Shown piece after piece: positions 38,194 through 49,301 of a stretch of DNA of 64,000 nt. Source of the DNA: Plantactinospora soyae (GTDB lineage: Bacteria > Actinomycetota > Actinomycetes > Mycobacteriales > Micromonosporaceae); NCBI RefSeq assembly GCF_014874095.1, contig NZ_JADBEB010000001.1, positions 7,812,001-7,876,000 on the forward strand, given 5' to 3'. The notes beneath the pieces are model-generated. The model did not search any database. It was not told the origin of the DNA and saw only the letters and a list, made by a program, of their open reading frames with translations. The position numbers were made by a program, and so were the translations under genes. Each line of letters opens with the position of its first letter. The first letter of the stretch is position 1.

Positions 38194-38700
38194 TCAATCC
38201 AGGCGAATGAGCCTATGAAGACGTCCCGCGACCGCGTCCTCGAACGCGAATTCAGCAGTCGCACATGCGTAGCGCCCCGCCCCAAAGGACGGCAAGATCA
38301 TTTCGTCGTCACCCAATGAGGTTCCTGTTGCAGCGGCATCGAATACGACTGCCCGCTCTGCGAGCTCGAAAGTCGGGCCTTCCTCCCAAACAAGACCCGA
38401 CTTCGCCGAATTCCGAGCAGCATCCACCAGCTGATGGGCCGAGGGCGCGTAGTGCCATTGAAGAATGCACCGAAGATCCGGGACGAATGTTGTCCGAAGT
38501 GGCTCGTCTCCGATCACCAGGCCGATCCGCTGATGACCGGCCGAACCCCATTCAATCAATCCCAGGTAGCCTGCCACCTCGCATGCCCGGTCATAGTCCG
38601 GCCCCTCACTTCCTGTCCAGTCGGGCAGGTCCGGAGCGGCAAGGACCACCAGCGGCCCACCGGCCGACTCAATCCAATGCAAGTATTCTTCGTCCATCAT
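38194..38700 (-). CDS. Imm21-family immunity protein for the RHS toxin
   Basis: 168-residue cytosolic protein starting at the ATG 38700, whose ATGA overlaps the RHS stop codon by four bases. The start 'MMDEEYLHWIESAGGPLVVLAAPDLPDW' followed by 'DYDRACEVAGYLGLIEWG' and 'GLVIGDEPLRTTFVPD' matches the Imm21 immunity family. It should bind and neutralise the C-terminal toxin tip encoded directly upstream. An in-frame ATG at 38769 exists inside the toxin gene but family alignment favours 38700. AT-richer than the RHS core, as expected for an exchanged toxin/immunity cassette. Confidence 0.88.
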   Translation of the reverse strand: MMDEEYLHWIESAGGPLVVLAAPDLPDWTGSEGPDYDRACEVAGYLGLIEWGSAGHQRIGLVIGDEPLRTTFVPDLRCILQWHYAPSAHQLVDAARNSAKSGLVWEEGPTFELAERAVVFDAAATGTSLGDDEMILPSFGAGRYACATAEFAFEDAVAGRLHRLIRLD

Positions 38701-41700
38701 CTTCCCAATCGGAGCGCCCAGGCCTGCGAGTATAGAGGTCTCATAATCGGCGCCAACTGACGAGCCCATCCCGCTTGGTTACGACTGCATGGCAGACACT
38801 GCGGGTAGAGTCGCTGCGGCATCCCATCGGGAATCCACGAGCTGATCGGCTGGTGATCGGGAACGAACCGCTCTCCTTTCGAGAATGGGTCGGTCGTGCC
38901 GCACGTGTGACAACCGAACGACCGGCCCAGCGCATCGATCTTTTGGCGCTCCTCCGAGGTGAAGTCGCGATCCTTGCTACGTGCCGGAATCGACTCGTTT
39001 GCATACCTACCTATGGGGCATACCTGCTCAGGATCACTACGGCCGTTGCTGTTGTGCACAAGGACGGCCGACTCGGCGGCGAGCACATAGTACGTGTGGA
39101 TGTCGGCCACGGTCAGGTTGTGCACCCGTTGCTGCTGGCTCCAGGCCCGTACGGAAACCACCCGGACCAATTCCCGGTCCTCCGTACGGAGCCAGTCGCC
39201 GGCCGCTAGGTCGTCGGCGTCTGCCCAGCGCCCGTCGGTGTCCAGCCAGAAGGGGTGACCGGCGGTGGCGATGACCGTGCCGGTCGCGTCGCCCCGGGCC
39301 CCGTCGGTGTCGACGGTGACCTCGACCAGGTCCTTCGCACCTTCACCGACGATCAGTGCGACAACCGGCCGGGACTTGGTCAGCCCGTTGACGGGATCGG
39401 TCGCCAGCACCTGATCGCCGACCTGGACATCCTCGATCGGCTTACTGGTGCCGTCGGCCATCACCACGGCGGTGCCCGGCACGAAGCTGTTGGGACAGCC
39501 CGGCCGCTTCGGTGCGGCCGGCGGTGCCTGCGGCGGGGGCGCCGGTTTGGCCGGCCCGGCCGGTGCCGCTGGAGTGTTGCCGGCCGGCTGTGCCGGCGGA
39601 GCGTCCCCACCCTTGGCCGGTGGAGCGGGTGGAGCCTCCCCACCGGTCTTCGCCGGGGGTGCGCCCTTGGCACCGGCGGCCACCTCGTCGGCGCCCTTCG
39701 CGCCGGTCTGCATGGCGTCGATGCCTGCCTTGCCGTACTTGCCGGCCTTGACCGCGCTGGCGCCGTACCCGGCGAGCGGGATCGCCGAGGTGAACGAGAG
39801 CGCGGCGTCGACGTAGTTGCCCTCGGCGGCGTACCAGATGCCGTTGGCGACGTCCGCGACCTCACCGACCACCGGCACCAGGCCGACCACGTCCAGCGCG
39901 GCGTGGCCGATGTCGCTCCAGGACGGCCAGTGTCCGGTCAGGTCGACCATGCTGATCGGGTTGCCGCCGCCGAAGGAGTACCGGTTCATGGTGAACGGGT
40001 TCATCGACAGCGACAGGTCGGACAGGGCGCCGTTGTAGAGGTCGAGGGAGAGGAACCGGTTCTCCCCGGGGCTGTAGTCCCGCAGCCCCATGTCGTAGTT
40101 GCCGGAGGCCGAGTCCCAGCGGGCGGTGTTGAACCGGTAGACACCCTCCGGCTCGGCGTCCGGGTTGCCGGCGTCGGGCTTGTCGACGCCGGTGAAGGAG
40201 GCGGTGTCGTCACCGCCGTACGCGGTGTAGCCGTAGGTGGCCCGGTTGTTCCCGTCCTCGTCCGTCAGGCTCTCCACGTCGGCGTGCGCGTTGTAGCCGT
40301 GGTACGACTGCTCCCGCTCGCCGTCCTCCGGGACGCTGAGCTGCCCGAGCAACTCCCCGAACGGGGAGTACTGGTACGACTTGCGCAGCTCGCCGTCGAC
40401 CCGCTCGGTGAGCACCTGCTGGGTCAGCCCCAGGTAGTCCAGGGTGGTGGTCTTGGCGTCGCCGCCGCCCGCCTTCGCGGTCCGGCTCACCGTCCGGTCC
40501 AGCGGGTCATACGCGTACCGGGTGGTGTTGGTGGCGGCCCCGGTGCCCTGCCGGTATTCGGCGGTGCGGTCGAAGCCGTCGTAGATATAGCGCTCGGTCT
40601 GCTCGCCGCCGGTGCTGATCCGGTTGAGCCGGCCGAACGGGTCGTAGCCGTAGACGAAGGTGGTGCCGGAGACGGTGGACGAGGCCAGCCGGTTCCGGTC
40701 GTACCGGAAGGTGGTGGTGTCGTCCTTGATCTTCTGCTCGATGATGTTGTTGTTCGCGTCGTGCCGGTAGGTTTCGGTGGACTTCTCGTCCCCGTCGGTG
40801 CCGGCCTTCGTCACGGTGCGGACCCGGTCGCGGGGGTCGTAGGCGTAGCTGACGACGTTGTCGAGGTAGTCGTCGTGGTCGTCGGCGTTCTGGAGCCGGG
40901 CGGTGTCCTTGATCCGGTGCGAGTTGGCGTTGTATTCGAGCGTGTGCTCGTTCACCACCGTGCCGCCGGACTTCTTCTCCACCTGGTGCCGCAGCAGCCC
41001 GTCGCGGAAGTATTCGAAGTCGACGGTGTTGCCGTTCGGCTTTACCTGCTGCCGCACGTGCGACCGGGCGGTGTAGCTGAACGTGGTGACCTTGTCCTCG
41101 GCGCCGGACCCGGTGGCCCGGTTGGTGATCCGCTCCACCAGGTCCCGCGCGTCGTAGCCGAAGGTGGCGGTCTGGTCGTCGTGCCGCCAGGCCGAGAGGT
41201 TGCCGTTCGGGTCGTACTCGTAGCCGGTGGTGTTCCGGAGCGTGCCGTCCTTGCGCTCCTCGATCGAGGTCGCCCGGTCCAGCACGTCGTAGCCGACCGT
41301 GTACTCGTCGATCCGGGCACCCGCACTGGCGTCGGTGACCGAGACCAGGTTGTCGTTGACGTCGTACCGGTGGTTGAAGGTCTTCCGCTCGGTGTCGACG
41401 TCGGCGCTGTTGTCCCGGACCAGCCGCAGCGCGTCGGCCACCACCGGGTTGTCGGCATCGCCGACCAGGGTGATGTTGCGCAGGTTGTCCTCGGTGAAGG
41501 CGAAGCGCCCGAGGCTGACCCACTCGCCGGCGTCCTGGGTCTGGTCGACCGTCCGGGTGGTGCTGCCGCCGTTGTGCTCGACGGTGTAGCGGGCGTTGGT
41601 CGCGGCGCCGCGCGGGAACCGGACCGCGACCTCGTAGTCGCCGCTGGCCGGGATATCCGCCTTCCAGGTGAAGCTGCCCTCGGTGGCGGTGGCGACCCGG

Positions 41701-44700
41701 TAGTCGTAACCCTCGTTCTCGGCGCCGCCCTCGACGGCCCGCCAGCCGCCGGTCAGCTCGGTGTGCTCGGCGTCGGAGTTGTCCACCAGCACCACGTGCT
41801 GGCCGACCGGCACCCCGTCGTCGGAGCGGGACTTGAGCTTGCCGTTGAGCTGGTATTCCCAGGACATGGTCCGGCTGGAGCCGCCACCCGCGCTGAGGAA
41901 CGTACGGGAGGTCTGCGCGCCGACCGTGTTGTAGTCGTAGTTGGTCCGGATGCCGAACGGGTCGACGGAGCTACGCAGCCAGCCGTTGTCGTAGTAGGTC
42001 TGCCGGGTGACGTTGCGGACGCTCTGCCCATCCGACGGCGGGGCACTGACCTCGGTGAGCTGGCCGACCTGGTCGTACCCGTAGAAGATCTTGTCCGGGG
42101 CGTTGACCGTCTCGTCGCCCGGGTCGAACGGGAGGTGCTTCTCCCGGATCCGGTTCAGCTCGTCGTAGACGACGGTCTGCACGAAGTCGTTCGCGTCGTC
42201 GGTCTCCACCCCGCGTGGCGTGGTGGTCCGGGTCGGGTTGCCGACCTGGTCGTACTCGTAGCGGGTGGTGAAGTAGCGGATGTCGTCGCCGTCGCCCGAG
42301 TGCGGCGAACGGGTCTCGCGGACCATGCCCCGGGCGTCGAGGCTGACCAGGGTGGCATTGCCCTCCTGGTCGGTCGACTCGACGACGTTGCCGTCCCGGT
42401 CGTACCGGACGCTGGCCCGGTGCCCGGCCGCGTCCACCACGGCGGTAACCCGGTGGTTCAGGTCGTACTCGGTCTTCGTGGTGTAGTCGTTCGGGTCCGG
42501 GGTCTGGTTCTTCTTCGGGTCGACCTCGGTGACCAGGTTGCCGACCTCGTCGTAGGCCGCCGTGCTGCGCTGCCCGAGCGCGTCGGTCACGGTCAGCCGC
42601 CGGTTCAGCTCGTCATACGTGTACCGGGTGACGAAGTCGTCCGAGTCGTCGCGGGTCAGCGTCCCTTTCGGTCGGGTCTCCGCCAGCAGGTTCCCGACCG
42701 GGTCATAGCGCAGCGTGCTGGTCTTCGCCGGTTCACCGGCCGACTCCCGGGGCGCGGTCAGCGCCACCATCTGGTCGTTCTCGTCGTACGTCGCCGTGGT
42801 CACCGCCCGGTTGGCGGCGGTCAGCGTGATCATGTTGTCGTTCGCGTCGTACTTCGGGCCCGGCGTGACGATGTACTCGCCGGCCGCCGCGTCCTTCGGG
42901 ATCCTGGTGGTCAGCGGGCGGTTGAGGATGTCGTACGTGAAGGTGCGGGTCTTCTGCCGGGCGTCGACCGTGGAGACCACGTTGCCGGTCGCGTCGTAGC
43001 TGAAGAAGCTGGAGCAGTCGAGCGCGTCGGTGATCCGCCGTGGATAGCCGTTCGCGTCGTAGTCGGCGTACGTGGTCGGGTTGCCGTTCGCGTCGGTGGT
43101 GGTGGTGAGGTGGCCGAACTCGTCATAGACGTACCGGCTGGTGTAGTCGCCGTCGGCGGCGCTCGCCGTACCCAGCGGGTCGGTGACCGCGACCAGGTTG
43201 CCCCGGTCGTCGTAGACGAACTTCCAGCGCCGGCCCTCCGGGGAGGTCTTCTCGGTCAGGTCGGCGACGTGCCCGTCCAGGTCGAACCGGTAGCCGAGCC
43301 GGGTCGGCGGGTGGTCGTGCGCGTTCGCCTCCGCGTCGCGGATCTCCAGCGGATAGCCGGTCTTGGGGTCGTAGACCCAGGTGGAGAGGGCGCCGTTGTG
43401 CTCCCGGAGCCGGACGACGTTGTTGTCCTCGTCCCAGACGAGCTGGGTGACCTCACCCTTGGCGTTGGTCAGCCGCTCGGTCCGGCCGTACCCGTCGAGC
43501 AGCAACTGCGTCGGGTTGCCGTTGGCGTCGGTCACCGTGGCCGTCAGCTTCGAGCCGTCGGATCCGTCGGCGTCGGCGTACCCGAAGTCGGTGCCGTGCC
43601 CACGGCGGTCGGTGAGTTCGGCGACCCGGCCGCGCAGCAGCGACCCGGCGCCGCTGTCGTGGTACCCGATGTCGGCGTTGTTGCCGTTCGGGTCGACCAC
43701 CCGGACCAGCCGGCCGTCGTCGTAGTGGAAGCCGAGGGCCCGCGCCTGCGGCGTGCCGGTGCCGTCGACGATCTCCTGGAGCAGCCCGGACTCGGTGTAG
43801 GTGAAGGTGAGCGTCCGGCCGGAGACGTCGGTGATCGACCGGAGCTGGTACGCGATGTCCGCGTCGCTGAGGTTCTTCGCCGACCGCCTGGTCGTACCGA
43901 CGAAGTAGGAGTAGTCGTCGCCGGGCTGGTAGTAGTCGAGGGTGAGGGTGCGTCGCCCGGTGGCGTCGGTCAGGTGGGTCAGCGTGCCGGTGTGCCGGTT
44001 GCCGACCTGGCCCTGCGCGTAGCCGAAGGTCAGCTCGTTGCCGTTTCGGTCAACCGTCGCGGTCTGGTAGCCGCGCTCGTCGAAGTACATCCGGGTCCGG
44101 TCCGGCCCGGTCATCGACCAGCGCCGGCCGTCGTCGTCCAGCCCGGTCCGTTGCAGCAGCAGGTGCACCCCGGCCGGGCTGTCGTACGTCCACTTCGACC
44201 GGTCGTTGCTGTCGTTGCGGTTCAGCTCGAACCGGTGCCCGGTGCCGTCCCCGTCGACGAGCGTGACCCGCTGCGGATGGTCCGACCCGCCCTGGAACTC
44301 CAGCGGGGAGCCGAGCCGGGTCAGCGTCGAGGTGGCCAGCGACCAGCCCGGGCCGAGCGAGGAGGAGGAGCCGTCCTGGCTGTTGTAGGCGAGCCGGACG
44401 AAGGTGACCGGCCCCCGGCTGGGGTTGGCCACCGGCGCGTAGTCGAAGACGGCGTTGCCGGAGAAGGCGTTCACCGCGATGCCGGAACCGACGCCGGTCC
44501 CGGTGCCGGCGTACTGGTAGAAGCTCTCCATGCCGAGCTGGTCGGAGGTGGGGTGCTCGACGGTCACGTCCTGGCGCAGCGCGGGCACGCCGGCGGTCTC
44601 GGAAAGCCAGGTCCGGCGCTGCCGGTCCCGCAGGTCCCAGGCGAGCACGTAGCGCTCGCGGCTCCGCTCGAGGAGGCCGTCCTCCGGTGCCTTGGCCCGG

Positions 44701-45182
44701 GCCTCCAGCACGACCGAGGCGCCGGGCGCGAGGTCCGCCGGCAGCGCGGTCTCCAGCCGGTTGGTACCGGTGGTCCGGTCGCGCCCGTCCGCCGAGAACC
44801 AGCGGTACGACAGCACGTACGTGCTCGCCGGCAGGGTGGCCCCGGTGGTGTTCCGGACGGTCACCTGGACCGGGTACTCGTCGGAGGGGATCATCCGGCG
44901 CGGCGCGTCGGGTGCCGAGTAGGCGCCCTCGACCTGGAGCGCGGCCGTGCGCAGCGGCCGGGGAGCGGGCGCCTGCCGGCTTGCGGTGGTCGCCGGGGAG
45001 CGGGTCGGCGTCGGACACGACGCGACCGCTGGCCGGGGACCGTCGGAGCGGGGTTGCCCGTCCGGCCGGACCCTGGCGGCGGCGGGCGCCGCCGTGGCAG
45101 CCGGTGTCGGTGTGACAGCCGCCAGGGTCAGCACCAAGGTGGGCAACAATCCGAAGCTGATGAATCGTCTGAAACGTGCCAC
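38697..45182 (-). CDS. Secreted RHS polymorphic toxin with Hint domain and HNH-type nuclease tip
   Basis: 2161 residues, GTG start. The order is: signal peptide (1-33); NEW3/Ig-like region (about 90-190); RHS shell entry 'GSGIAVNAFSGNAVFDYAPVA' (about 230); YD repeats (about 380-1110 and 1260-1700); a golvesin-like inserted module (about 1130-1260); the RHS core end 'GLRDYSPGENRFLSLDLYNG' (about 1700); a pre-toxin hydrophobic region (1730-1810); an Ala/Pro/Gly linker; a Hint autoprotease from 'CPNSFVPGTAVVMADG' to 'AVLVHN' (about 1895-2045). The toxin tip has two CxxC pairs and 'FVPDHQPIS', an HNH/Endonuclease VII-like pattern. Likely an antibacterial nuclease released by Hint cleavage. Base composition drops over the tip. 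Confidence 0.94.
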   Translation of the reverse strand: MARFRRFISFGLLPTLVLTLAAVTPTPAATAAPAAARVRPDGQPRSDGPRPAVASCPTPTRSPATTASRQAPAPRPLRTAALQVEGAYSAPDAPRRMIPSDEYPVQVTVRNTTGATLPASTYVLSYRWFSADGRDRTTGTNRLETALPADLAPGASVVLEARAKAPEDGLLERSRERYVLAWDLRDRQRRTWLSETAGVPALRQDVTVEHPTSDQLGMESFYQYAGTGTGVGSGIAVNAFSGNAVFDYAPVANPSRGPVTFVRLAYNSQDGSSSSLGPGWSLATSTLTRLGSPLEFQGGSDHPQRVTLVDGDGTGHRFELNRNDSNDRSKWTYDSPAGVHLLLQRTGLDDDGRRWSMTGPDRTRMYFDERGYQTATVDRNGNELTFGYAQGQVGNRHTGTLTHLTDATGRRTLTLDYYQPGDDYSYFVGTTRRSAKNLSDADIAYQLRSITDVSGRTLTFTYTESGLLQEIVDGTGTPQARALGFHYDDGRLVRVVDPNGNNADIGYHDSGAGSLLRGRVAELTDRRGHGTDFGYADADGSDGSKLTATVTDANGNPTQLLLDGYGRTERLTNAKGEVTQLVWDEDNNVVRLREHNGALSTWVYDPKTGYPLEIRDAEANAHDHPPTRLGYRFDLDGHVADLTEKTSPEGRRWKFVYDDRGNLVAVTDPLGTASAADGDYTSRYVYDEFGHLTTTTDANGNPTTYADYDANGYPRRITDALDCSSFFSYDATGNVVSTVDARQKTRTFTYDILNRPLTTRIPKDAAAGEYIVTPGPKYDANDNMITLTAANRAVTTATYDENDQMVALTAPRESAGEPAKTSTLRYDPVGNLLAETRPKGTLTRDDSDDFVTRYTYDELNRRLTVTDALGQRSTAAYDEVGNLVTEVDPKKNQTPDPNDYTTKTEYDLNHRVTAVVDAAGHRASVRYDRDGNVVESTDQEGNATLVSLDARGMVRETRSPHSGDGDDIRYFTTRYEYDQVGNPTRTTTPRGVETDDANDFVQTVVYDELNRIREKHLPFDPGDETVNAPDKIFYGYDQVGQLTEVSAPPSDGQSVRNVTRQTYYDNGWLRSSVDPFGIRTNYDYNTVGAQTSRTFLSAGGGSSRTMSWEYQLNGKLKSRSDDGVPVGQHVVLVDNSDAEHTELTGGWRAVEGGAENEGYDYRVATATEGSFTWKADIPASGDYEVAVRFPRGAATNARYTVEHNGGSTTRTVDQTQDAGEWVSLGRFAFTEDNLRNITLVGDADNPVVADALRLVRDNSADVDTERKTFNHRYDVNDNLVSVTDASAGARIDEYTVGYDVLDRATSIEERKDGTLRNTTGYEYDPNGNLSAWRHDDQTATFGYDARDLVERITNRATGSGAEDKVTTFSYTARSHVRQQVKPNGNTVDFEYFRDGLLRHQVEKKSGGTVVNEHTLEYNANSHRIKDTARLQNADDHDDYLDNVVSYAYDPRDRVRTVTKAGTDGDEKSTETYRHDANNNIIEQKIKDDTTTFRYDRNRLASSTVSGTTFVYGYDPFGRLNRISTGGEQTERYIYDGFDRTAEYRQGTGAATNTTRYAYDPLDRTVSRTAKAGGGDAKTTTLDYLGLTQQVLTERVDGELRKSYQYSPFGELLGQLSVPEDGEREQSYHGYNAHADVESLTDEDGNNRATYGYTAYGGDDTASFTGVDKPDAGNPDAEPEGVYRFNTARWDSASGNYDMGLRDYSPGENRFLSLDLYNGALSDLSLSMNPFTMNRYSFGGGNPISMVDLTGHWPSWSDIGHAALDVVGLVPVVGEVADVANGIWYAAEGNYVDAALSFTSAIPLAGYGASAVKAGKYGKAGIDAMQTGAKGADEVAAGAKGAPPAKTGGEAPPAPPAKGGDAPPAQPAGNTPAAPAGPAKPAPPPQAPPAAPKRPGCPNSFVPGTAVVMADGTSKPIEDVQVGDQVLATDPVNGLTKSRPVVALIVGEGAKDLVEVTVDTDGARGDATGTVIATAGHPFWLDTDGRWADADDLAAGDWLRTEDRELVRVVSVRAWSQQQRVHNLTVADIHTYYVLAAESAVLVHNSNGRSDPEQVCPIGRYANESIPARSKDRDFTSEERQKIDALGRSFGCHTCGTTDPFSKGERFVPDHQPISSWIPDGMPQRLYPQCLPCSRNQAGWARQLAPIMRPLYSQAWALRLGR

Positions 45183-45789: not shown

Positions 45790-46842
45790 TCAGAAGTCGT
45801 CGTCGAACCGGACCGTGCCACCAACCCCGACCTGGTACGCCGACACCCGCCGCTCGAAGAAGTTCGACAGCTCCTGTACGTCCTGCAACTCCATGAAGGC
45901 GAACGGGTTGCTCGACCCGTACAGCGGGGCGATGTCGAGCTGGGCCAGCCGGCGGTCCGCCACGTACTGGAGGTACTCCCGCATGTCCGGCAGGGACAAC
46001 CCGGAGACCCCCTGTTCGAGCAGGTCCTCGGCGAACTGCACCTCGCACTCGACCGCCTCGGCCAGCATCTCCCGGACCTGCTGCCGCAACTCGTCGTCGA
46101 ACAGCTCGGGCTCCTCCTGACGTACCGTGTCGACCACGTCGAAGGCGAACGCCATGTGCATCGACTCGTCCCGGAACACCCAGTTGGTGCCGGAGGCTAG
46201 CCCGTGCAGCAATCCCCGTGAGCGGAGGAAGTAGACGTACGCGAAGGCGCCGTAGAAGAACAGCCCCTCGATGCAGGCGGCGAAGCAGATCACGTTGAGC
46301 AGGAACGCCCGCCGGTCGTCCCGGGTCTTCAGCTCACGCAGCTCGAAGACCGAGTCGATCCAGCGGAAGCAGAACTCGGCCTTCCGACGGATCGACGGGA
46401 TGGTCTCGATCGCGGCGAACGCGGCGAACCGCTCCTCCTCGTCCGGCACGTACGTGTCGAGGAGGTTCAGGTAGAACTGGACGTGCACCGCCTCCTCGAA
46501 GAGCTGGCGGGACAGGTACAGCCGCCCCTCCGGCGAGTTGACGTGCTGGTAGAGGTTGAGCACCAGGTTGTTGGCGACGATCGTGTCGCCGGTGGCGAAG
46601 AACGCCACCAGCCGGCCGACCAGATGCCGCTCCGCCGCCGAGAGCCGGTCCAGGTCGGCCAGGTCGGAGTGCAGGTCGACCTCCTCGACCGTCCAGGTGT
46701 TCTTGATCGCGTCCCGGAACCGGTCGAAGAAGTGCGGGTACCGCATCGGGCGCAGCGTCAGATCCATCCCGGGGTCGAGCAGCATCGGCGTCGCACGCCC
46801 GGCGGTGCTGCTGACAGTCGTACTCTCGTCGACCGCGCTCAC
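45790..46842 (-). CDS. nrdB: Ribonucleoside-diphosphate reductase, beta subunit (class Ia)
   Basis: R2 radical-generating subunit of 350 residues. The di-iron ligands are in place: D in 'FFATGDTIVANN', E and H in 'EEAVHVQFY', E in 'CIEGLFFYGAF', E and H in 'RDESMHMAF'. The radical tyrosine is retained four residues after the histidine ('HVQFY'), as in E. coli NrdB and unlike the Chlamydia class Ic enzyme. The C-terminal acidic 'VRFDDDF' is the docking tail for NrdA. The GTG at 46842 overlaps the nrdA stop by four bases (GTGA), so the subunits are translationally coupled. A further upstream ATG at 46857 is less likely. Confidence 0.97.
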   Translation of the reverse strand: MSAVDESTTVSSTAGRATPMLLDPGMDLTLRPMRYPHFFDRFRDAIKNTWTVEEVDLHSDLADLDRLSAAERHLVGRLVAFFATGDTIVANNLVLNLYQHVNSPEGRLYLSRQLFEEAVHVQFYLNLLDTYVPDEEERFAAFAAIETIPSIRRKAEFCFRWIDSVFELRELKTRDDRRAFLLNVICFAACIEGLFFYGAFAYVYFLRSRGLLHGLASGTNWVFRDESMHMAFAFDVVDTVRQEEPELFDDELRQQVREMLAEAVECEVQFAEDLLEQGVSGLSLPDMREYLQYVADRRLAQLDIAPLYGSSNPFAFMELQDVQELSNFFERRVSAYQVGVGGTVRFDDDF

Positions 46843-49301
46843 TGGCAGGCCTCGCATGCCTCGGGGTTCTCCAACGAACAGGCCAGCGCCTCGTCGTCCG
46901 AGGTGTTAGGAAGGGGCCCTTCTACAACGGAAAGCGATAACAAGGGGCCCTTCCTTACACCTACCGTGGCTTGTTGGATTCGGGTGGCGGGGCGGGAGCG
47001 GAGGTAGTACGTGGTCTTCAGGCCGGACTTCCAGGCGTGCAGGTACATCGAGCTGAGCCGGCCGATGTCGGGCGCCGCCATGAAGAGGTTGAGCGACTGG
47101 GACTGGTCGACGTAGGGGCCGCGCGCGGCGGCCAGGTCGATCAGCGCCCGCTGCGGCAGTTCCCACGCGGTACGGAACAGCTCACGCAGCTCCGCCGGAA
47201 GCTCCTCGATGCCCTGTACCGAGCCTTCGGCCCGCTTGATCGCGGTACGGATCTGCTCGGTCCAGAGCCCACGTGCCTTCAATTCCGCCACCAGGGCGGC
47301 GTTGATCTGGAGGAACTCGCCGCTGAGCGTCTCCCGCTTGAACAGGTTGGACACCTGCGGCTCGATGCACTCGTAGCAGCCGGCGATCGAGGCGATGGTG
47401 GCCGTCGGTGCGATCGCCACCAGCAGGGAGTTGCGCAGCCCGTGCGCCGCGATCCGCGTCCGCAGTGCGGCCCAGCGCTCCGGCTGGTTGCCGGAGACAC
47501 CCCACAGGTCCGGTTGGAGCTGACCGGCCGCCGCCCGGGTCGACGGGTACGCCGGATGCGCACCGAACCGCTCGGCCAGCTCGGCCGAGGTCTCCAACGC
47601 GGTCAGGTAGATCTCCTCGGCGATCCTGGTGGAGAGTTCCACCGCCGGTGCCGAGTCGAAGGGCAGCCGGAGCGCGAAGAAGACGTCCTGGAGCCCCATC
47701 ACACCGAGCCCGACGGGGCGCCAGCGCGGGTTGCTCGCCGCTGCCTCCGTACTCGGGTAGTAGTTGATGTCGATCACCCGGTCGAGGAAGGTCACGGCGG
47801 TCCGGACCGTGCCGCGCAGCCGTTCCCAGTCGATCCCCTCGCCTGTCCTGATGCCCTCGCCGTTCGGGTCGGTGGCGAGGTGGGCGGCCAGGTTGATCGA
47901 GCCCAGGTTGCAGACGGCGGTCTCGGTGTCGCTGGACACCTCGAGGATCTCCGTGCAGAGGTTGGACAGGTGCACGACGTTGCCCGGCTCGGCGCTCTGG
48001 TTGCACAGCCGGTTGGCGGTGTCCTTGAAGGTCATCCAGCCGTTGCCGGTCTGGGCGAGCGTGCGCATCATCCGGCCGTACAGGTCCCGGGCCTTCACCT
48101 GGCGCACGAACCGGCCCTGCTCCTCGGCCGCCCGGTACGCCGCGTCGAACGCCTCGCCCCACAGGTCGGGCAGCTCCGGCACCTCGTCCGGATCGAACAG
48201 CGACCACATCCCGTCCGCCTCGACCCGCCGCATGAACTCGTCCGGGATCCAGTTGGCCAGGTTGAGGTTGTGGGTACGCCGGGCGTCCTCGCCCGTGTTG
48301 TCCCGCAGTTGCAGGAACTCCTCGACGTCCGGGTGCCACGGCTCCAGGTAGACGCAGGCCGCGCCCTTACGCCGGCCGCCCTGGTTGACCGCCGCCACCG
48401 ACGCGTCCAGGGTGCGCAGGAACGGCACGATCCCGTTGGACTGGCCGTTGGTGCCCCGGATCAGCGCGCCGCGCGAACGCACCCGGGACCAGGCGATGCC
48501 GATCCCGCCGGCGAACTTCGACAGGTGCGCCACCTGGGCGTAGCGCTCGTAGATCGAGCCGAGTTCGTCGCGCGGCGAGTCGACCAGATAGCAGGACGAC
48601 ATCTGGGTGTGCCGGGTGCCGGAGTTGAACAGCGTCGGCGAACTGGGCAGGTAGGCGAGCGACGCCATCAGCCGGTAGAGGCCGATCGCCTCGCCCGCCT
48701 TACGGGACAGGCCGCAGGCCACCCGCAGCAGCCAGTACTGCGGGGTCTCCACCACGAGCCGTTCGGTCGGATGCCGCAACAGGTACCGGTCATAGACCGT
48801 ACGGAGTCCGAAGTACTCGAACCGCCGGTCGGCGCCTGGATCGACGGCGTCGTCGAGCTTGCGCGCGTTGACCCGGACGAACTCGGCCGTCTCGTCGCCG
48901 ATCAGCCCGTGCCGGTGCCCGAGCCCGATCGCCTGACTGAACGAGGCGATGCCCTGGCCCCGGACCTCCTTGTCGATGTACCCGGTCAGCAGCCGAGCGG
49001 CCAGCCGGGAGTACTGCGGCTCTTCACCGATCATCTCGGCGGCGGTCTGGATCGAGAGCCGATCGAGTTCGGCGGTGCTGGCGCCGTCGTACAGGCCGCT
49101 GATCGTCCGGGTCGCCACCCGGAGCGGCTCGACGTCGGTCAGGTCGTCCGCCCAGCGTTCCACCGCTCGGACGATCTTGTTGACGTCGACCGGCTCGGTG
49201 TCGCCGTTACGTTTACGCACCCGCATCTGGGGACGCCGGGGCGCGATGCTGGCGCCGTCCGCCACGCCGGAATCGGCCGGCAGGACCTCGGTGACCGTCA
49301 C
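46839..49301 (-). CDS. nrdA: Ribonucleoside-diphosphate reductase, alpha subunit (class Ia)
   Basis: Catalytic R1 subunit of 820 residues, making dNDPs from NDPs. An N-terminal ATP-cone allosteric domain (about 28-118, 'VRKRNGDTEPVDVNKIVRAVE') is complete. Active-site residues are visible: the first redox cysteine in 'MSSCYLVDS' (about 237), the Asn-Cys-Glu triad in 'NLCTEIL' (about 445) and the C-terminal shuttle pair C816/C819. Between 'RIQQATV' and 'SDDEALAC' about 20 extra residues are encoded by an inserted palindromic element. GTG start with AGGAG eight bases upstream. The cobalamin riboswitch upstream matches the known B12-dependent repression of class Ia genes in Streptomyces. Confidence 0.97.
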   Translation of the reverse strand: MTVTEVLPADSGVADGASIAPRRPQMRVRKRNGDTEPVDVNKIVRAVERWADDLTDVEPLRVATRTISGLYDGASTAELDRLSIQTAAEMIGEEPQYSRLAARLLTGYIDKEVRGQGIASFSQAIGLGHRHGLIGDETAEFVRVNARKLDDAVDPGADRRFEYFGLRTVYDRYLLRHPTERLVVETPQYWLLRVACGLSRKAGEAIGLYRLMASLAYLPSSPTLFNSGTRHTQMSSCYLVDSPRDELGSIYERYAQVAHLSKFAGGIGIAWSRVRSRGALIRGTNGQSNGIVPFLRTLDASVAAVNQGGRRKGAACVYLEPWHPDVEEFLQLRDNTGEDARRTHNLNLANWIPDEFMRRVEADGMWSLFDPDEVPELPDLWGEAFDAAYRAAEEQGRFVRQVKARDLYGRMMRTLAQTGNGWMTFKDTANRLCNQSAEPGNVVHLSNLCTEILEVSSDTETAVCNLGSINLAAHLATDPNGEGIRTGEGIDWERLRGTVRTAVTFLDRVIDINYYPSTEAAASNPRWRPVGLGVMGLQDVFFALRLPFDSAPAVELSTRIAEEIYLTALETSAELAERFGAHPAYPSTRAAAGQLQPDLWGVSGNQPERWAALRTRIAAHGLRNSLLVAIAPTATIASIAGCYECIEPQVSNLFKRETLSGEFLQINAALVAELKARGLWTEQIRTAIKRAEGSVQGIEELPAELRELFRTAWELPQRALIDLAAARGPYVDQSQSLNLFMAAPDIGRLSSMYLHAWKSGLKTTYYLRSRPATRIQQATVGVRKGPLLSLSVVEGPLPNTSDDEALACSLENPEACEACQ
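46901..46962. repeat. Palindromic mobile-type element inserted in frame in nrdA
   Basis: The 21-base left arm (46901-46921, starting AGGTGTTAGGAAGGGG) and the right arm (46942-46962, ending CCCTTCCTTACACCT) are complementary at 19 of 21 positions, around a 20-base loop. The outline (GGAAGGGGCCC arms plus a short AT-containing loop) resembles a REP/MITE-like element I recall as dispersed in Micromonospora and Salinispora genomes. It adds whole codons to the flexible tail of NrdA without a stop. Other copies were not found in this window. Confidence 0.8.

Follow-up and report, generated by a model that had tools for sequence, protein, structure and literature searches.

A palindromic repeat of gene 3' ends lies in an intact reading frame within nrdA of Plantactinospora soyae

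We analysed a stretch of 64,000 nucleotides of the Plantactinospora soyae genome (the window), in which a palindrome lies inside nrdA, the gene for the large subunit of class I ribonucleotide reductase. This segment is very probably a copy of a high-copy repeat of about 60 bases located mainly at gene 3' ends, which would have landed in frame in a linker of the enzyme and been tolerated there as a peptide some 20 residues long. The best-known examples of palindromic repeats in frame come from Rickettsia, which are obligate intracellular bacteria and in which such insertions can be put down to genome decay. The genomes studied here are large and GC-rich and show the same phenomenon: a single reductase linker carries the element in three genera, and other hosts include helicases. 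Nature has here replicated an experiment on how a peptide derived from a repeat is tolerated, or put to use, by a core enzyme. Annotators should take such segments as repeats, not as conserved protein motifs.

The palindrome within nrdA

The preliminary description of the sequence proposed two 21-base arms, complementary at 19 positions and lying in frame inside nrdA ahead of the CxxC motif; both the palindrome and its position were confirmed. The features of the locus are as follows.

46901..46962, minus strand: palindromic repeat, 19 of 21 arm positions complementary; NrdA residues 780-801
46901..46921: left arm of the inverted repeat
46922..46941: inter-arm spacer of a minor subtype (CTACAACGGAAAGCGATAAC)
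46942..46962: right arm; its minus-strand outer end, TGTAAGG, in other copies faces gene stop codons
46839..49301, minus strand: nrdA, class I ribonucleotide reductase large subunit with ATP cone (PF02867, PF00317, PF03477, TIGR02506)
45790..46857, minus strand: nrdB, small subunit (PF00268), open reading frame

The nrdA open reading frame encodes 820 amino acids, and the insert translates as V-GVRKGPLLSLSVVEGPLPN-TS, between the barrel-domain match, which ends at residue 767, and the C-terminal CxxC motif (C816-E-A-C819), which follows shortly after. We propose that the repeat landed upstream of the nrdA stop codon, in this barrel-to-CxxC linker, and in what would be the sole right-end frame that a variable edge base, described below, cannot close (GTA AGG AAG GGG CCC...). 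Since the right-end frame is open in nrdA, the element would be translated into some 20 residues of linker, and GPLLSLSVVEGPLPNTSDDEALACSLENPEACEACQ is the tryptic peptide predicted from it. The AlphaFold model of NrdA (mean pLDDT 61; residues 764-820 below 50) is weak as a whole, so it simply fails to contradict a disordered tail.

The RNA of the element on the nrdA strand is predicted to fold at -34.7 kcal/mol (z -3.9; 2 of 200 shuffles equal or better), and the family consensus, which we derived ourselves, at -42.8 kcal/mol (z -7.3). A repeat finder at default settings did not call the arms as an inverted repeat and reported only a 12-base direct repeat, AAGGGGCCCTTC; AAGGGNCCCTTC, with up to one mismatch, had four matches in the window, all within the nrdA element. 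Direct reading found no T run on either side of the hairpin, and a terminator scan of positions 46400-47400, which allows loops of 3-8 only, found none. A U-tract intrinsic terminator was rejected on the grounds that this is a GC hairpin without a T run.

The start of nrdB, previously placed about 60 bases further on, was corrected: the first ATG of the nrdB frame, at 46857, lies about 44 bases beyond the element and overlaps the end of nrdA, and a start that matches the MLLDPG of relatives may lie near 46785, about 116 bases past it. Both this proximity and the stable predicted fold would suit the view that the nrdA copy owes its retention to the tuning of nrdB translation or polarity by its mRNA hairpin. 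We consider this distinctly unlikely, however, given that nrdB follows nrdA without the element at 28 of the 30 loci L061-L090, and that the arms in g17 clade B pair imperfectly, both of them reading GGGCACC. Moreover, ribosomes translating nrdA should melt the hairpin, and should likewise keep it from acting as a 3'-end structure. On the other side of nrdB, an adjoining open reading frame of 2161 amino acids (window positions 38697-45182) resembles, in a translation read by eye, an RHS/YD-repeat protein with an HNH-like C-terminal part.

A repeat family at gene 3' ends

A first DNA search with the element gave at least 41 matches in the genome (238 candidates, 40 scored). A 55-base pattern, allowing at most 3 mismatches, matched 163 times in the 9.7 Mb genome (88 forward and 75 reverse, with 100 places listed), and its backward-read control did not match the genome at all. 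A linker as hypervariable as this one might have become palindromic by accident, whether by chance or as native sequence, but the 163 matches to the same pattern, against none for the control, practically rule this out. A sole match in Rfam, mir-617 (E 0.97; 17.6 bits against a gathering score of 80), was discarded.

The aligned copies share an ungapped core, GTTAGG...CCTTNCA, and the outer bases, GAGGTG/CACCTC, are less conserved; the element therefore consists of the 55-base core and short outer arms, about 62 bases in all, with terminal inverted repeats. The minor spacer subtype of the nrdA copy is common to L002, L003, L004 and L009. With respect to covariation, the copies of the own genome resemble one another too closely for a judgement, and the best register has 83% paired cells. 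Beside L002, L008, L132 and L160, the right-end sequence TGNAAGGAAGG recurs about 12-14 bases further out, and these repeated ends may be traces of the mechanism of movement.

A stricter pattern found matches in 81 of 354 genomes (the own genome included), belonging to 6 of 44 genera, and in none of the controls; the taxonomic family concerned is probably Micromonosporaceae. The number of matches ranged from a single one in some genomes to 196 in G329; these counts in relatives add both strands, some sites being counted twice, and the stricter pattern undercounts the own genome (19) and G016 (17). The possibility that the element occurs nowhere else fails on the 163 matches in the genome and the 81 genomes. 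Among the matches listed in literature searches for palindromes, MITEs, REPs and repeats of Micromonospora, Micromonosporaceae and Actinoplanes and for the arm letters, subscription papers lying mostly outside their scope, the family was unreported.

Placement was judged with a codon model, for which 27 open reading frames of the window served as training set; given 240-base pieces of these same frames, it chose correctly in 89% of cases. The sample consisted of 103 distinct copies (from L001-L030 and L091-L161), being the 30 loci most like the nrdA copy and the first-listed pattern matches, and is thus a non-random part of at least 163. At 97 of these copies at least one gene runs toward the element. 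Both sides could be decided at 82 copies, with raw counts of 47 in convergent, 33 in tandem and 2 in divergent position. The right end is faced by 84 genes, 72 of which stop at -7 to +2, and the left end by 60, of which 35 stop at -12 to +2. The number of matches and this placement bear out the earlier view of the element as a repeat of intergenic type. At these sites it probably serves as a terminator or as an mRNA-end structure.

Read in the direction of the facing gene, the right end is mostly TGNAAGG, and the edge base N is linked to the frame of that gene. It is true by definition that a stop at +2 has T and a stop at 0 has A, and what counts is a set of 40 genes whose frames run on to the right end uninterrupted by a stop. 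In this set, N was A, which gives TGA, for all eight genes in frame 0 (Fisher p 1e-8), and T, which gives TAA, for 25 of the 28 genes in frame 2 (Fisher p 2e-6). N is unable to close frame 1, which four genes used: nrdA and a non-ribosomal peptide synthetase (NRPS) gene read through, and those at L022 and L147 are closed by other edge changes. The edge base was either part of the host stop codon on which the repeat settled, or was fitted by selection.

In other genomes, 30 loci gave 24 rows, some of which represent one site on both strands; a gene runs toward the right end in 17 rows, and 6 of the 18 decided rows are convergent. We count 13 distinct sites among them, with a stop at -7 to +2 in seven, so that the right-end rule looks looser there.

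In-frame copies and the NrdA linker in relatives

Three of the 103 copies are crossed by an open frame with coding signal: those in nrdA, in the adenylation domain of an NRPS (L030, directly before YLIYTSGSTGRPKG) and in a UvrD/PD-(D/E)XK helicase-nuclease (L007, read off the other strand). Three further facing genes, at L009, L103 and L154, end within the element or at its far edge. In-frame hosts were accepted only with codon-usage support on both sides, and an open frame alone was rejected as evidence of coding, long open frames without coding signal being common; L019 and L117, whose open frames pass through the element, were judged by eye to be non-coding there. In relatives, where the test covered frames on the nrdA-like strand and some regions had been chosen for their open frames and are uninformative on frame preference, the in-frame hosts comprise a protein without Pfam match in G138 and G022 (L197 and L281, at the identical site), an HRQ1-like helicase (L282) and a LuxR-type regulator (L286) in G022, and a PKS linker in G219 (L255). 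There is a possible read-through at L194/L204 of G016, where a frame on the left-hand strand stays open beyond the element as far as the locus extends. The linker of the L007 helicase carries a variant element also in G004 (EVLGGGPSTTESDNGGPFL), and seven other orthologues (L302, L303, L305-L308 and L310) have unrelated linkers, mostly rich in Gly, Pro or Asp; of the 14 loci entered in this comparison, 9 rows matched the search expression and 5 were without a row.

A joint pattern of the YYLRSRPA codons and the element edge identified the nrdA element in 12 of 354 genomes (G000, which is the own genome, and G002; G022, G138, G139, G141, G142, G145 and G146; G219, G282 and G308), in 3 of 44 genera, and in no controls. 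A 13th carrier, G140, was found only by reading the tails, so the joint pattern can miss carriers. The element thus occupies the same NrdA linker in 13 of the 75 genomes whose tails were read, which were selected by match (74 and G237) from a larger searched set, and in three genera. The other 62 tails have unrelated linkers of variable length, which excludes that all orthologues share the same tail residues without a palindrome. The tail after LRSR has 50 residues in the own genome, 38 in G016 (L034) and 54 in G005 (L033), the last without the element. The earlier statement that the element adds about 20 codons holds for the residues it spans, but it is loose as a measure of gain, as linker length varies in all orthologues. 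We suggest that the insert was tolerated because the NrdA linker is free to vary among orthologues in both length and sequence. Within g17, the NrdA of G144 is without the element, and those of G137 and G143 retain only TTVRK, in different codons; this TTVRK without the element (L272 in G143, L273 in G137), with which the linkers of relatives that carry the insert also start, is either a remnant or an older target sequence.

Where the comparison was made, the nrdA copy appears to be mostly of the subtype resident in the same genome. By eye, GGGCACC is found in nrdA and in most of the listed resident copies of G138, G139, G140, G141, G142 and G146, and GGGACCC/GGGTCCC in both the nrdA copy and the residents of G022. 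The spacer TTAACGCCTCCGGTAGAG is common to the nrdA copy and the residents of G308 and G282, the resident search in G308 having scored 40 of 240 first-look candidates. The nrdA spacer of G219 is of the TATCG type, and its residents were sought with another spacer type.

These patterns would fit a wider reading, possible but put forward tentatively, of the repeat as a mobile 3'-end cassette with a stop-codon adaptor. It would settle on stop codons, one edge base closing two frames and leaving the third open, and copies in linkers with an open frame would become protein and be repeatedly re-invaded or overwritten by the resident subtype, as in nrdA and DNA-repair helicases. As edge base and host frame are linked, a stop-codon adaptor is an idea that can be tested directly; if the cassette reading is true, a repeat family keeps editing the sequences of core DNA-metabolism enzymes.

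In the NrdA tree, constructed by a quick method from 54 of the 93 tail rows with the tail excluded, the insert label needs at least six changes, five of them forced by starred branches. This suggests at least two separate gains in nrdA and more likely three to five, some of which could be conversion instead. A single ancestral insertion, lost many times, with the survivors overwritten by conversion from resident repeats, would account for the identical linker, orientation and frame in all 13 genomes, and also for single sites at which two species hold different subtypes (L197/L281 in g17 and the helicase linker of G000 and G004). It is nevertheless doubtful, since the g1 pair with the insert belongs to a clade of 32 NrdA rows whose 30 remaining members have no element and would require many losses, and since the points of entry lie as much as about 12 bases apart. 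The sequences do not cleanly separate independent insertion from one older insertion followed by conversion, above all in g17.

The reading of the insert as a tolerated linker peptide can be compared with its rate of change. Across six g17 species, a pS of 0.137 and a pN of 0.053 (ratio 0.39) were obtained for the 18 insert codons, on 28 synonymous and 32 non-synonymous differences over 15 pairs, which are non-independent, against a pS of 0.194 and a pN of 0.028 (ratio 0.14) for 150 codons of the enzyme body in the same species. Between G000 and G002, the insert codons show two changes, one synonymous and one non-synonymous. By these ratios constraint acts on the insert peptide, though less strongly than on the enzyme body, which supports the term "domesticated" used earlier only in part. 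Recruitment of the peptide to a function in NrdA, such as that of a spacer of the swinging arm, would agree with the ratio of 0.39 and with the free variation of the linker after the insert, but we regard it as unlikely in view of the stronger constraint on the body, the non-independent pairs and the 62 of 75 orthologues that do without the insert. As a tolerated peptide, the insert may be near-neutral for the enzyme. The gene had also been called essential; this is weakened because the genome encodes a vitamin B12-dependent class II ribonucleotide reductase near 4.085 Mb (4085132-4086796, L279; 1085.7 bits against a cut-off of 859), and nrdAB may be dispensable given this enzyme.

Site occupancy and relation to known repeats

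Sixteen sites of the own genome were searched in G002 and G005, and ten were aligned. In G002, nine sites are filled (L006, L023, L030, L091, L097, L100, L102, L137 and L157) and seven are undecided; because nine of the sixteen are filled, the spread looks mostly older than the split from G002. Nine sites were seen in G005: four are filled (L006, L100, L137 and L157), one is cleanly empty (L023), and four lack the element but have other sequence in its place (L007, L091, L097 and L102). At L023, the G005 gene has the same last residue (RMLLRL), followed by TAG as against the TAA of the element, so the repeat sits there on the native stop; no target-site duplication was seen at this one clean empty site. 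At L100, G005 retains its own TGA two bases ahead of its copy, and at L137, an orthologous convergent site (L243 and L244), the copies of G002 and G005 are inverted relative to the own genome. The repeat may thus move by insertion, and the term "mobile-type" of the preliminary description gains indirect support from the empty site, the four element-less sites and the nrdA subtypes in three genera. The replacement sequence of G005 is hairpin-like by eye at L091/L230, L097/L234 and L102/L232.

Rickettsia palindromic elements (RPEs) are described as repeats that lie between genes and are also fused in frame inside conserved protein genes (PMC2229807, PMC10969869), with lengths given there as 105-146 bases (PMC2229807) and elsewhere as about 150; nearly half of the R. 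conorii RPEs are intragenic (PMC10969869). The nrdA family is likewise inserted in frame, in nrdA, NRPS, helicase-nuclease and other genes, but it differs from RPEs in its length of about 62 bases, which falls outside both values, in having 3 of the 103 copies examined intragenic as against the share reported for R. conorii, and in its unrelated host group.

GTAG/CGTC REPs, as described by Di Nocera et al. (2013, PMC3733652), are placed in convergent or tandem position near gene 3' ends, with termini that supply stop codons, and some are intragenic, many of these in DNA synthesis and repair genes including the UvrD/REP helicase and recB. Micromonospora, Salinispora and Streptomyces do not occur in the main text of that paper. 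The nrdA family shares with these REPs the convergent or tandem 3'-end placement, the stop-supplying termini and the intragenic position of some copies, but it has no GTAG/CGTC tag, its ends in 103 copies being GTTAGG and mostly TGNAAGG, which the search pattern partly imposes. The element is best described as working like the in-frame palindromic elements and the 3'-end REPs while belonging to neither by the tags tested, and the family as RPE-like or REP-like palindromes at gene ends, at times in frame, with nrdA as a recurrent host.

The family resembles MITEs in being short, with inverted arms and a high copy number; as regards the other features of MITEs, no target-site duplication was seen at the one clean empty site, and no partner transposase was identified in a search that covered PF01797. 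That search sets the family apart from REPs: the Y1/RAYT transposase had no match in the copy-rich genomes G000, G022 and G016, and a REP/RAYT system was rejected on this basis. Of the ten genomes searched, three had PF01797 matches (G138, G002 and G219); among these Y1_Tnp matches (L217-L220), one has an internal stop and two lie at contig ends.
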